Shown: piece by piece, positions 39,497 to 61,298 of the stretch
How the letters are laid out: each line of letters starts with the position of its first letter
Numbering within the stretch: the stretch's first letter is position 1
Assembly: GCA_007618135.1 (NCBI GenBank)
Contig: PHFX01000001.1
Span: 62,001 to 126,000, forward strand
Length of the DNA: 64,000 bases
Direction: 5' to 3'
Origin: Candidatus Brocadia sp. WS118
Lineage (GTDB): Bacteria; Planctomycetota; Brocadiia; Brocadiales; Brocadiaceae
Translations under genes and position numbers: made by a program
Notes under the pieces: generated by a model
What the model was told of the DNA's origin: nothing
The model's database searches: none
The model's input: the letters and a program-made list of their open reading frames with translations, nothing else

Positions 39497-41935
39497 TTAT
39501 TCCACTTCAAATCGTACCTTATCAATAAGAATTGCCGTATCATAAATGCTATCCCCGACATCGCCGGCGCTGAAGATTATTTCTCCGCTCTCCCCTTCCA
39601 AAGCGGTAACATCTATCTCTTTGCTCTGCCAGCCAGTGTTATAAACATCCCCCCGGTCAAACGACACGTCCGAAGCAAACACGCTTCCGCAAAGAGAATC
39701 TACGGTGTTATTTTGCAAGATAGTACCAAGGAGGGTTACGGTAAAATAATCCTGATATTGGGAACCGCAATATTCAAGGAACTCCTCGGAAAAATAATTC
39801 CAATCATATTTTAGTTTCACGCTCGTGGAATCCTCAGACAACGATGGTATGCAAACCGGTTGTGATATAGAACCGGAGGACGTGGTGAATCCGAGACCGG
39901 TAGAAATAATACCCATGAAAGATCCCTCGGTCGGAATTGTGCTGCCAAGCTGGGTAATAACCCTCCCATCACCTGAGGTTGTCCAACCATCAAGGTTTCC
40001 GGTTTCAAAGCCGCCATTTATAAGATCCGTGTCAGCTATGGATAAATTGTTACTCCCATGCATCGTAAAGTATGCGGGAATACTGCCGTCGTTTTGTCCG
40101 GGCGTAAATGCCTCACCCGTAGTCTCCTCATTAGTCACCAGGTCAATAAAAAGTTGCTTACCAACGGTGTTGCAGAAACTGGAAAGGACATATTCAGTGA
40201 ATCCGTAGTAAGTCCTTGCGCCGGAATTCAGAAACGCATCGGACATCGAGCTGTTGTACGTACTTCTGCATGACCCGACATACACAAGGCTTTTGGGAAA
40301 ATTTGCGTTGTAATAGGTAATGAAAGAGGGCAATATTGCAAGCCTTCCATTTGCAAGAACACATAAACGGCCCAGTTTCAAATCTGATTCGTAATTTGCC
40401 TTGTTTCCATTGGTAAGGAAAGAATTGGTCAAGATAATGACCTGGCCTCCTATGAAGTTCCATCCGAATTTATCTTGCCACAGTGACAGGAGACCGTTGT
40501 AATAAGTATCACCGTGTGAGGTTATGACGATAATTCCATACTTGTGCAGACTCTTAAACACATCCACGGTGCCGTTCGGGTCTACAAATGTTTCCACCTC
40601 ATATTCCGGGCATAAGGAGTCTTCAAGTAACGCCTCAATGTCATCAGCTTCGTCAGTGTAAAAAAATGGAGAGATTATTGCAGCCTTTTTGCTGCCTACC
40701 TTTTCTGTATCATCGTCTGTCGACTTGAAACTCACACGTGGAGCGGCATACTTACCTACACCTTCTATATCAGACTTAAGATTCACTTCCGGGGCTTTTC
40801 TTGCCGATTCTCTTAAAGAGCCTCCTCTGTATTGGGTGTTATCATATACGGGTATTGCGCCCAGGATGCCATCCGCACTGACCCACCAAGCACCTTGCCC
40901 GTTTTCTTCAATACCGGCATCTGAGATATTTGGATCAGATTCCAACCCATCTACAAGGAGATCAAGGGCTTGTTGCTGATCTCCGGTTTGTGCAAGAAAG
41001 GCTTCGTAATCGCTCTTAGCTTTGTCTGCTGTGCTTATTGCGTTATCGACCTGCTCTGTGGTCAAATGGGCAATAACAGGAAGTGTCACGCCTTTGGAAC
41101 TCAGAGTAACCTTAGGGAGGTTAAGAGATTTGGCAATCACCTGATATTCCAGGGTGGTTTCCGAGGGAATTAATAAGTTTACAATACAACTATATACGCC
41201 GTCACCTTGTATATCATCACCGTGATCCAGATCGCCGTCGTCGTACATTTGTGCAACTTCAAGAGTAGTGCTCGATGTATTCGTGTCATCGGTTATTTGC
41301 ACGAGCTTTACGCTTGTTGAATCGAGATCGGCAGTTGCAGATATTCCCTGCCGGAAAACGATATTTGTCGATTCACTCACGAAAACAACATCCGGATTAC
41401 TCGTTGTTTTCCCCAGGAATTGTGGCAAACTGCTGCATCCGATTGACTGGCTTTTTTTGTTCGCCTTTAATGAGCCGTCTTTTTTTTCTTTCATCTCTAC
41501 ATAAATACAGCCTGAATCATCGGTAAGATCCATGTTAACATAGACAAGGGTATCCAGTTCCGACAGATCCACATCCGTGGCTGAAAACTCATACTGCTTC
41601 GTCTTGTAACTTAATTTCACCTTATTTATACCAGGGAGATTAGAGGCATATTTAAAAGTGTCACCGGCATTATTTCCTGTAAAGGAACCTGCCGGAATCG
41701 TTTCGGAGTAATTTCCAACGGTTATAGTTACGGGAACGCTCGTAAGGTCTACCGGCTGAAGTGTATGCTTAAACTTTCCAATAAATTTAAAGGAATCCGA
41801 GGAAGGAGAACCAGATGTCCCGAATTTGATGGTGGCATTTGATATCTTCAAGTCCATGGCGTTGGTGATGGATACTAAATAAAATAACAACACCGATACA
41901 ACCATCGAAGTAATTCCCGGTTTAAACCTAAGCAT
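39497..41935 (-). CDS. Secreted clan CD (C25/caspase-like) protease-like protein
   Basis: This is an 812-aa protein with a signal peptide (SMVVSVLLFYLVSITNA). The N-terminal half is beta-rich and carries a choice-of-anchor X-type stretch (MYDDGDLDHGDDIQGDGVYS). The central part resembles gingipain/caspase-clan proteases. It has a strand followed by the His motif VITSHGD (His474), then a strand with the Cys motif YVGSCRS (Cys556), followed by SGARTYYGFTEYV, in the right order and spacing. The C-terminal 160 residues form a jelly-roll-like carbohydrate-binding or anchor module (NGGFETGNLDGWTT). It has an SD (AAAGGAG) before the ATG. It is probably exported through the T2SS or kept on the cell surface; substrates are unknown. 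Confidence 0.65.
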   Translation of the reverse strand: MLRFKPGITSMVVSVLLFYLVSITNAMDLKISNATIKFGTSGSPSSDSFKFIGKFKHTLQPVDLTSVPVTITVGNYSETIPAGSFTGNNAGDTFKYASNLPGINKVKLSYKTKQYEFSATDVDLSELDTLVYVNMDLTDDSGCIYVEMKEKKDGSLKANKKSQSIGCSSLPQFLGKTTSNPDVVFVSESTNIVFRQGISATADLDSTSVKLVQITDDTNTSSTTLEVAQMYDDGDLDHGDDIQGDGVYSCIVNLLIPSETTLEYQVIAKSLNLPKVTLSSKGVTLPVIAHLTTEQVDNAISTADKAKSDYEAFLAQTGDQQQALDLLVDGLESDPNISDAGIEENGQGAWWVSADGILGAIPVYDNTQYRGGSLRESARKAPEVNLKSDIEGVGKYAAPRVSFKSTDDDTEKVGSKKAAIISPFFYTDEADDIEALLEDSLCPEYEVETFVDPNGTVDVFKSLHKYGIIVITSHGDTYYNGLLSLWQDKFGWNFIGGQVIILTNSFLTNGNKANYESDLKLGRLCVLANGRLAILPSFITYYNANFPKSLVYVGSCRSTYNSSMSDAFLNSGARTYYGFTEYVLSSFCNTVGKQLFIDLVTNEETTGEAFTPGQNDGSIPAYFTMHGSNNLSIADTDLINGGFETGNLDGWTTSGDGRVITQLGSTIPTEGSFMGIISTGLGFTTSSGSISQPVCIPSLSEDSTSVKLKYDWNYFSEEFLEYCGSQYQDYFTVTLLGTILQNNTVDSLCGSVFASDVSFDRGDVYNTGWQSKEIDVTALEGESGEIIFSAGDVGDSIYDTAILIDKVRFEVE

Positions 41936-58676: not shown

Positions 58677-61298
58677 CTATTTATGGAGAGAGTATTCCGA
58701 GGTCTTACCGGAGGGACTCTCTTTTCCCTGCCGGGGAAAGACAGTGCCGCCACTGAAAAAGAGCCTCATTTCCTGAAAGACAACGTCTCTCTTATCCTTA
58801 ATACACCTGATGTCCGGAAGTGATTGAAGAAAGACACGTCCATATCTTTTGGTAACTATCCGGCGGTCGAAAACAATCACTACGCCCTTATCCGCGCGAC
58901 TGCGTATGAGCCGTCCAAAGCCCTGCTTGAATTTAATCACAGCCATAGGTACGGAATACTGAAAAAAAGCATCACCCCCGGCCTTTTCAATAGCCTCCAC
59001 TCGTGCTTCAATAATGGGTTGTGTCGGTACTTTAAACGGCAATCGGGTGAGGATGACGCATTCCAGCGCATTTCCTCTTACATCAATCCCTTCCCAGAAA
59101 CTGTCTGTAGCAAACAAGACCGACGTCGCGTCCTTTTTAAAGGTCTCAAGGAGATTATGGCGACTGCCCGCTCCCTGCTTCAGACAAACATAACCGAGTC
59201 GTGTAATCTGTGGTTCTAGCCTCTGATAAAGGTCATTGAGGAGGCTGTATGAGGTAAACAGGACTAACGCACGGCCTTCTGAGATTTCTATGGCCTGCAA
59301 GATGCTCTCCTCCAGCGCCGAAACATACCCTGCCTGGCCGGGTTCAGCAATGTCTGTGGGAATGCCAAGCATCGATTGGCGCTGGTAATCAAAGGGAGAA
59401 TCCAGGATCAGTTCAGATAATTGTTTTTCTGGAATCAGATGCAAGCCAACACTGTCTTTGAAAAAGGTAAAGGTCTTGTTGATTGCCAGGGTAGCTGATG
59501 TCAGGAGTATCGTACGGTAATGATCGTAGAGGCAGGTCTTTAAATCTTCGGAGACTGAAAGCGGCGCAGCGCAAAACCTGATGGCCGGTTCCCCTGCGTA
59601 TCTCTTCATCTCAATCCATTTGCAAATCTTTTCATTCTCAACAATAAAGGCGTCAATCTCGTTTGCCACTAACTTCAATCGCATCTTGCACGATAGAATA
59701 TCGATCAGCACAGACGACAGAATTTCCTGTGATTTCTTTGAGAGTTCCGCCAATTCATCGAGGAGTGACGTTAAAAGGGAAATAAATCTCCGGGTATCAG
59801 CGCTTAATTTTCTGAGCTGATTCTCAATAACATCCCGCCACAGATCGGTGGCAATAAAACTGTCGGTAATGCGAAACCTGATTTCTTCATCCTTCACCGC
59901 TTCTTTTTGCAATCCGGTGTGAATGCCATAATTACTTACCGCCTGGGACATATCTTCAAAAATTTCCTGCACGGTATCATAGAGCAGTTGTCGTGCTTCC
60001 AGGATTTCCGTGTTAATTCTGTCGGTAATTTTTCCTGCAATATCCTTGTCATGCACAGAACTCACTTCTTTGAATTTGCTCTTCAGGTACTGTAACAGGC
60101 CTTTTCTCGCATCCTTGAGATTGACCAGTCTCCCCAGGAGCTTTACGATCCTTAATCTCGAAATTGTCGTGCTGAGATTTGACGTTGCCACATCTTCGAG
60201 GTGATGCGCTTCATCAATAATAATTTTCTGGAAGGGAGGTAAAATTGCCACGGCATCGTACCCCTTCGTTTCCTTGCGTACTATCAGATCAGCCATCAGG
60301 AGATAATGATTTATGACCAAAATATCCGCGCTGGCTGCTTTTCTACGGGCGATATAAAAAAAACACTCGTCATAAAACGGGCACTTCAGCCGTGTGCACT
60401 GGTCTGCCTCAGATTGTATTGCCTCCCAAACGTCCTCCTGTGGCACAAAATTAAGGTCGGCCTTGCTCCCGTCCCGCGTCTTTGCTGTCCATGCTAACAG
60501 ATCGTTCAGTTGCCGGCGATCTTTGTCCTCAATCAGCGTGCCGCCATCAGAACGCAAATTGGAAACCTTTCTCAGGCACACGTAATTATTTCTTCCTTTT
60601 ACCAGGACACTCTTGAAGTCAAGTCCGCAACAGGTTCTGAGTATCGGGATATCTTTCTCGATTAATTGTTCCTGGAGGTTTATCGTATGGGTGGAAACTA
60701 CTACCCGCTCCTGGTTTTTAATACTCCAGGATACGGCAGGAACCAGATATGCCATGGATTTCCCCGTCCCTGTCCCCGCCTCTATCACGGCAATTTTGTC
60801 TTCATTAAAGGCGTCAACGGCCGACTTCAGCATCTCGACCTGCGGCTTGCGGTATTCATAGTGAGGCAAGTGCTGTGCAAAATTTCCTCCGGGCTGAAAT
60901 TGTGCGGACAGTTCGCTGAAGGTTAGCTTTTCGCATGTCCGCTCTTTCTTTACCCTTACCACGGGGTACACGAATTCCACGGTATTATCCACGATATAGC
61001 ACCCTACGTTCTGAGACCCCATATATGATGCAATCTCAAGGTCTGCTTCGGACGGTTCCAAAATCCCATCCGGGTGGTTGTGGATAATAACATCCCTGCA
61101 TTTTGCCTCTTTTATCAGAGCGGGCGCAGCCGTTTTATTGCCCATGGCATAGACATCAACATCCGTCACCATGAGGGCGTCGTTAAGCCTTCCCACCATG
61201 AATATCTCATTTCCCCCTGCCTTTTCTATTGCGTCTTTGATGGAAGAAATGGCATCGGGCAGGATATATTCTTTGACCAACCAGGCAGTCGTTTTCAT
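58677..61298 (-). CDS. DinG/XPD-family helicase fused to an N-terminal JAB (JAMM) domain
   Basis: This is an 873-aa superfamily 2 helicase of the DinG/XPD type. Walker A is IEAGTGTGKSMAYL (about 172-185) and the DEAH box is IIIDEAHHLEDV (360-370). Four Cys for a likely 4Fe-4S cluster stand at 241, 301, 306 and 312 (QCTRLKCPFYDEC), and motif VI is KFKQGFGRLIRS. The first 120 residues form a separate JAB/MPN-like domain with the JAMM motif HNHPDGILEPSEAD (H73, H75, D86). This is the same metal-site pattern as in RadC and JAMM deubiquitinases. Known family fusions usually carry an exonuclease instead. The start at 61298 has no clear SD. It is divergent from hpf, with 329 bp between. Confidence 0.9.
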   Translation of the reverse strand: MKTTAWLVKEYILPDAISSIKDAIEKAGGNEIFMVGRLNDALMVTDVDVYAMGNKTAAPALIKEAKCRDVIIHNHPDGILEPSEADLEIASYMGSQNVGCYIVDNTVEFVYPVVRVKKERTCEKLTFSELSAQFQPGGNFAQHLPHYEYRKPQVEMLKSAVDAFNEDKIAVIEAGTGTGKSMAYLVPAVSWSIKNQERVVVSTHTINLQEQLIEKDIPILRTCCGLDFKSVLVKGRNNYVCLRKVSNLRSDGGTLIEDKDRRQLNDLLAWTAKTRDGSKADLNFVPQEDVWEAIQSEADQCTRLKCPFYDECFFYIARRKAASADILVINHYLLMADLIVRKETKGYDAVAILPPFQKIIIDEAHHLEDVATSNLSTTISRLRIVKLLGRLVNLKDARKGLLQYLKSKFKEVSSVHDKDIAGKITDRINTEILEARQLLYDTVQEIFEDMSQAVSNYGIHTGLQKEAVKDEEIRFRITDSFIATDLWRDVIENQLRKLSADTRRFISLLTSLLDELAELSKKSQEILSSVLIDILSCKMRLKLVANEIDAFIVENEKICKWIEMKRYAGEPAIRFCAAPLSVSEDLKTCLYDHYRTILLTSATLAINKTFTFFKDSVGLHLIPEKQLSELILDSPFDYQRQSMLGIPTDIAEPGQAGYVSALEESILQAIEISEGRALVLFTSYSLLNDLYQRLEPQITRLGYVCLKQGAGSRHNLLETFKKDATSVLFATDSFWEGIDVRGNALECVILTRLPFKVPTQPIIEARVEAIEKAGGDAFFQYSVPMAVIKFKQGFGRLIRSRADKGVVIVFDRRIVTKRYGRVFLQSLPDIRCIKDKRDVVFQEMRLFFSGGTVFPRQGKESPSGKTSEYSLHK

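Follow-up and report, generated by a model that had tools for sequence, protein, structure and literature searches.

A predicted RadC-like DinG of Candidatus Brocadia sp. WS118 with a JAMM-site domain ahead of an iron-sulfur helicase

Helicases of the DinG and XPD families load on single-stranded DNA and move in the 5'-3' direction. DinG proteins have been divided into exonuclease, endonuclease, HNH and RadC-like subgroups, the last under the name 'RadC-like DinG' (Cheng 2025, PMC11981726); the remark on known DinG fusions in the original prediction for the locus described here, that they have exonucleases attached, is outdated by this scheme. In the sections of that paper drawn on here, RadC-like DinG is stated to be without any prior research, the member from Desulfuromonas soudanensis is modelled, and the DALI matches of its RadC-like domain are to metalloproteases and none to nucleases. 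The stem 'Planctomycet' has no match in the main text of PMC11981726, and Table S1 of the paper may list anammox members. An earlier study (PMC5512222, 2017), in the part drawn on here, states with reference to Iyer 2011 that RadC-DinG/RAD3 helicase fusions have served as the basis for proposing a nuclease role; it argues that RadC-type JAB domains are without the groove for the ubiquitin tail and itself proposes a nuclease. The RadC-DinG architecture is already known and named and is not new. Our literature search found no experiments on a RadC-DinG fusion in titles and abstract openings, and no reported activity for any RadC.

We examined a window of 64,000 nucleotides (contig PHFX01000001.1, assembly GCA_007618135.1), on the reverse strand of which one reading frame stays open for 873 codons from an ATG at 61298 and encodes one 873-aa protein (Table 1). 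The isolated N-terminal 120 aa match Pfam RadC (PF04002) at 26.0 bits (E 9.5e-6, cut-off 22.1); on the whole protein the same model gives 20.8 bits, slightly below the cut-off. The JAMM residues H73, H75 and D86 lie where they had been predicted, the fourth canonical residue E31 and also S83 are there as well, and this complete set (E31, H73, H75, S83, D86) is invariant across a 14-row alignment of relatives. The helicase part is matched by Pfam Helicase_C_2 (164.7 bits) and DEAD_2 (25.6 bits) and by DinG PRK08074 (531, cut-off 789). These Pfam and NCBIfam matches, with four FeS cysteines, bear out the prediction that the JAB domain is joined to an iron-sulfur helicase in one ORF. YoaA is the best NCBIfam model for the helicase, yet its equivalog cut-off is not reached and YoaA is without a JAB domain. 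The JAB part has its nearest named match in Candidatus Brocadia pituitae (84%). Pfam gave no match to UPF0758_N or to RNase_T (DnaQ exonuclease) in the fusion protein. Free RadC, by contrast, has a UPF0758/HhH N-terminal part and no helicase, and it shares with the fusion the motif HNHP..G...PS..D.

Table 1. Features of the predicted RadC-like DinG gene, in window coordinates
Feature	Position	Strand	Evidence
Predicted RadC-like DinG, JAB (JAMM) domain plus FeS helicase, 873 aa	58677..61298	-	ORF, Pfam/NCBIfam, relatives
Predicted JAB/RadC-like domain, about aa 8-118	60945..61277	-	Pfam RadC on isolated domain; AlphaFold model, pLDDT 89.6; fold matches RadC 2qlc and Rpn11
JAMM Glu31	61206..61208	-	Invariant in 14-row alignment; residue counts
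JAMM core H73-N-H75-P...P82-S83-x-x-D86	61041..61082	-	14-row alignment; residue counts
Linker, about aa 119-139	60882..60944	-	Near-constant distance from JAMM to Walker A in different phyla
DinG/YoaA-type superfamily 2 helicase, aa 140-845	58764..60881	-	NCBIfam YoaA 593 bits (below cut-off 680); PDB 6fwr DinG, E 2e-52
Walker A EAGTGTGKS, aa 173-181	60756..60782	-	Sequence, alignment
FeS cysteines C241, C301, C306, C312	60363..60578	-	Sequence, alignment, residue counts
DEAH box, aa 362-365	60204..60215	-	Sequence, alignment
Motif VI QGFGRLIR, aa 792-799	58902..58925	-	Sequence, alignment

An AlphaFold model of the JAB part, built from 48 diverse relatives, reached the pLDDT given in Table 1; a full-length model from 14 rows was middling (66.2). 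Searched with Foldseek, the JAB model found RadC 2qlc as the top match (E 1.7e-5), and the other matches listed at E < 0.001 were the JAMM/MPN proteins CSN5, Rpn11, BubCD and BRISC. VIA-align placed Rpn11 4owp_B (Z 9.9, 2.7 A over 103) and RadC 2qlc_D (Z 8.9, 3.2 A over 102) together, rows within 1 of Z being treated as tied. The sequence profile of the JAB family found 2qlc at E 8.5e-7 and AfJAMM at just 0.06-0.07. Because of these Foldseek, VIA-align and profile matches we concluded that the JAB domain is, as modelled, a RadC-like member of the JAMM/MPN fold, in agreement with the likeness to RadC and deubiquitinases that had been proposed; the absence of a metal-binding fold, which would have refuted that proposal, was not borne out by the predicted structure. 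A fold shared with JAMM peptidases does not establish function.

The architecture is real, widespread and well conserved. A full-protein match was present in 28 of 39 relatives, which, with the invariant JAMM residues of the alignment, rules against chance; nearly all genomes of the source organism's own family have the fusion, and in another family of the same order (G026, G029, G032, G037) the helicase matches begin at the motor domain. In one genome of the same genus (G004, locus L030) the fusion is present solely as a frame-broken, stop-riddled copy, which may be a pseudogene or reflect an indel-rich assembly. Among the matches listed for Planctomycetota, 36 of 246 genomes had a match beginning in the JAB part. 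All 58 Desulfuromonadia genomes had a helicase match and 57 of them the JAB part (counting the fusions of G320 and G327, which lie on broken contigs), the exception being G342. From 384 confirmed relatives, 80 loci were kept for a named scan; they include Brocadiales, Desulfuromonadia, KSB1, Hydrogenedentota, Sumerlaeota, Auribacterota, Acidobacteriota, Spirochaetota, Nitrospinota, a Dependentiae MAG and a Clostridia MAG. The fused ORF was present in 79 of these 80, several of them cut by contig ends, and the last leaves its contig before the helicase. In the 24 named genomes, which were chosen for carrying the fusion, the fused copy is exactly one per genome (24/24), and 23 of them have a separate, shorter RadC-like ORF as well. 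An assembly or annotation artefact, for which we found no evidence, has a negligible chance of explaining the fusion and is refuted by its distribution over many groups. The search for the same domain order, proposed as a check, thus returned the same single ORF in many groups, in some cases within one contig.

In a quick helicase tree of 63 rows, the Brocadiales sequences form a branch with Auribacterota and Desulfuromonadia (SH-aLRT 97), apart from other Planctomycetota; this grouping suggests that the Brocadiales copies may have been acquired by transfer. To explain the JAB kind on these 63 rows takes 3 changes, and two of the rows (L058 and L103) are long and weakly placed. Grouping with Desulfuromonadia is one of several features that the protein has in common with RadC-like DinG of PMC11981726, as far as that paper was drawn on: the same domain order with an N-terminal RadC-like domain, the same four catalytic residues (here E31, H73, H75 and D86) and a YoaA-like helicase, here with a four-Cys FeS set. 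The modelled member of that subgroup is from D. soudanensis, unlike the Brocadia-type protein described here. We consider membership of the RadC-like DinG subgroup to be almost certain.

The helicase of G342 (locus L177) sits inside the Geobacterales JAB group of the quick tree (support 99), and because of this nested position its want of a JAB part is read as a loss; by sequence, L177 appears to have lost the domain. An intact radC (L177:933-1622, PF04002 156 bits), with the N-terminal UPF0758/HhH part of free RadC, lies directly upstream on the same strand, with a gap of about 55 bases between its end and the helicase start (from about 1679). We counted such linkage in the 58 Desulfuromonadia genomes (the class sample of G274), which are related, so that the counts are not independent: 6/58 have a radC at most 5 kb from the fusion gene (random expectation 0.17), 10/58 have one within 20 kb (0.67 expected; same strand in 10/10) and 25/58 within 125 kb (4.2 expected). 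Six close cases were read (five of the 58 plus Desulfuromusa); they have one to three genes in between, with an SGNH/GDSL-like lipoprotein gene, assigned by eye, in four of the six. We concluded that radC is linked to the fusion gene across Desulfuromonadia. In the source genome, the likely RadC match is on a different contig from the fusion.

The downstream neighbour in the window, on the same strand, is a gene for an NAD-dependent epimerase-like protein, and the upstream neighbour, divergent, is a ribosome hibernation factor gene. Among 70 of the 80 named loci no neighbour family was common beyond related genomes, which gives no candidate operon partner. The upstream regions of 8 genus members, in which a promoter or LexA site was sought, align poorly. 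Elsewhere in the window (39497-41935, reverse strand) lies an 812-aa ORF without a Pfam match at E 1e-5. A mobile or phage origin was considered and rejected: in viral_contigs no relative of the N-terminal 140 aa was confirmed (close relatives only), and tblastn of aa 1-150 against phages and plasmids gave no match. A defence system was rejected likewise; the leading PADLOC matches were type IV DinG/Csf4 helicases, the rest were weak and fell on the helicase part, and none was to the JAB part alone.

To follow the active site, we used two samples that had been collected by a full-length profile and are independent of the JAMM motif: all 58 Desulfuromonadia and 34 of the 36 fused Planctomycetota (G166 and G181 left out). 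The complete E-H-H-S-D set is present in 56/58 and 33/34, respectively. The three exceptions are L177, which has no JAB part, L140, a fused ORF with T in place of S83, and L228 (genome G341, Desulfuromonadia), a diverged copy that reads A-H-H-T-E and whose JAB site is likely altered or dead. The JAMM residues were also found in 99/99 of the named-loci set, a count that is biased because these loci were picked by patterns, one of them with HNHP, and by motif-seeking extraction. In the same 34 Planctomycetota, two FeS ligands vary (Cys241 to Ser in 8/34, Cys301 to Ser in 13/34) while the JAMM set is kept in 33; in Desulfuromonadia the FeS cysteines are kept in every row that covers them. The distance from JAMM His73 to Walker A is 100 residues in 169/191 rows and 99-107 in 189/191, a count in which two rows were unmeasurable and some proteins were entered twice. 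Against five relatives, dN/dS was 0.12-0.33 for the JAB part and 0.08-0.19 for the helicase part, values that indicate purifying selection on the fusion protein. Retention of the JAMM set, near-fixed spacing and low dN/dS together speak for a working enzyme that would be held in a fixed pose.

A domain of this fold might instead serve as a non-catalytic docking module that ties the helicase to DNA or to a partner; MPN domains without catalytic activity are a common component of eukaryotic complexes. The degenerate L228 and the JAB loss in L177, in a class that otherwise keeps the helicase, fit such a role; these two cases (2/58 Desulfuromonadia) indicate that some lineages can do without catalysis in cis. 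We consider docking unlikely, as all five JAMM residues are nearly always kept, and in Planctomycetota are kept above two of the FeS ligands. Judged from sequence and predicted structure, a RadC/MPN fold bearing the whole JAMM site stands at a near-fixed distance from a complete FeS helicase, and the JAB domain is probably catalytic in some way.

What it would cut is approached through ExoDinG (DnaQ-DinG), which likewise has an N-terminal hydrolase ahead of the same helicase but differs from the fusion in its exonuclease fold without a JAMM site and in its separate branch of the helicase tree. Among the matches listed for the 246 Planctomycetota genomes, 17 proteins have a match that begins at aa 116-127 of the profile. 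We took 16 of these 17 (G256 left out; the 16th is cut by a contig start), and in 15/16 a DnaQ-like motif was recognized by eye ahead of the helicase, in the position that JAB takes in the fusion; a Pfam RNase_T match was present in 5/5 of those scanned. The exonuclease kind forms a single group in the quick helicase tree (support 100). The JAB kind (36) and the exonuclease kind (17) co-occur in none of the 246 genomes listed, with ~2.5 expected by chance, which is a weak sign that the two exclude each other within a genome. The JAB domain could accordingly stand in for the DnaQ exonuclease, trimming the strand opened by the helicase as a nuclease or as an enzyme that processes nucleotides, a possibility that also has the published RadC hypothesis based on fusions behind it. 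The fold matches of the domain are JAMM peptidases, and we know of no JAMM-site nuclease. The N-terminal position is weak evidence for a nuclease, since ArdC-N, a further partner of RadC, is in about 70% of cases linked to a zincin metallopeptidase according to the portion of PMC5512222 drawn on here. We regard a nuclease as possible, if somewhat improbable, and the JAB domain as slightly more likely a peptidase.

The reading that we prefer, with a probability of roughly 40%, is that the protein is a RadC-like DinG in which a JAB zinc hydrolase is coupled to the helicase and acts on a protein substrate. The helicase part would load on single-stranded DNA and travel 5'-3' as in the DinG/XPD family, and the JAB domain would act as a zinc hydrolase on whatever the helicase meets or exposes. 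By analogy it may clip a protein bound or crosslinked to DNA once the helicase has stripped or unfolded it. A protein cut is favoured because of the peptidase-type fold and the fixed coupling to the helicase; as an assignment of the substrate, it is tentative. Against a peptidase stand the absence of a reported activity for any RadC, the groove argument of PMC5512222 as far as drawn on here, and the exonuclease at the place of JAB in other Planctomycetota DinGs. Removal of an adduct, or R-loop processing, as first put forward for this locus, is plausible for the JAB-helicase fusion.

The analogy is with FANCJ and SPRTN, an XPD-family helicase and a metalloprotease that is not known as a JAMM enzyme. 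In the part of the account drawn on here (PMC12279946), FANCJ meets a crosslinked protein and unfolds it, after which SPRTN cuts; these are two proteins, versus one polypeptide in the present case, and the parallel is an inference. Extended further, the fusion might be a repair machine in a single polypeptide that deals with DNA-protein crosslinks or stalled DNA-bound proteins, the bacterial equivalent of FANCJ together with SPRTN. The FeS helicase would run along single-stranded DNA into the adduct and unfold it, leaving the cut to the rigidly docked JAMM domain. Free RadC, having no motor itself, would carry out the same cut, and this would account for the linkage of radC and the position of radC right before the JAB-less helicase in one lineage. 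We hold this extended version to be rather unlikely.

The interest of the fusion lies in what reaction a RadC-type JAB domain performs. Such domains are widespread in bacteria, and we found no assigned reaction for them in the literature; the single-copy fusion to a helicase narrows where a RadC-type JAB domain works. To the named architecture the present analysis adds motif-independent JAMM counts, the FeS variation, the near-fixed spacing, DnaQ at the place of JAB, the loss of JAB in one lineage with radC directly upstream, and the linkage of radC to the fusion gene across Desulfuromonadia. The fusion offers a clean genetic test: a single point mutation in a single gene of a culturable Geobacter. 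Were the JAB domain a peptidase, bacteria would own a helicase-protease dedicated to protein adducts; were it a nuclease, it would represent a new kind of JAMM enzyme.
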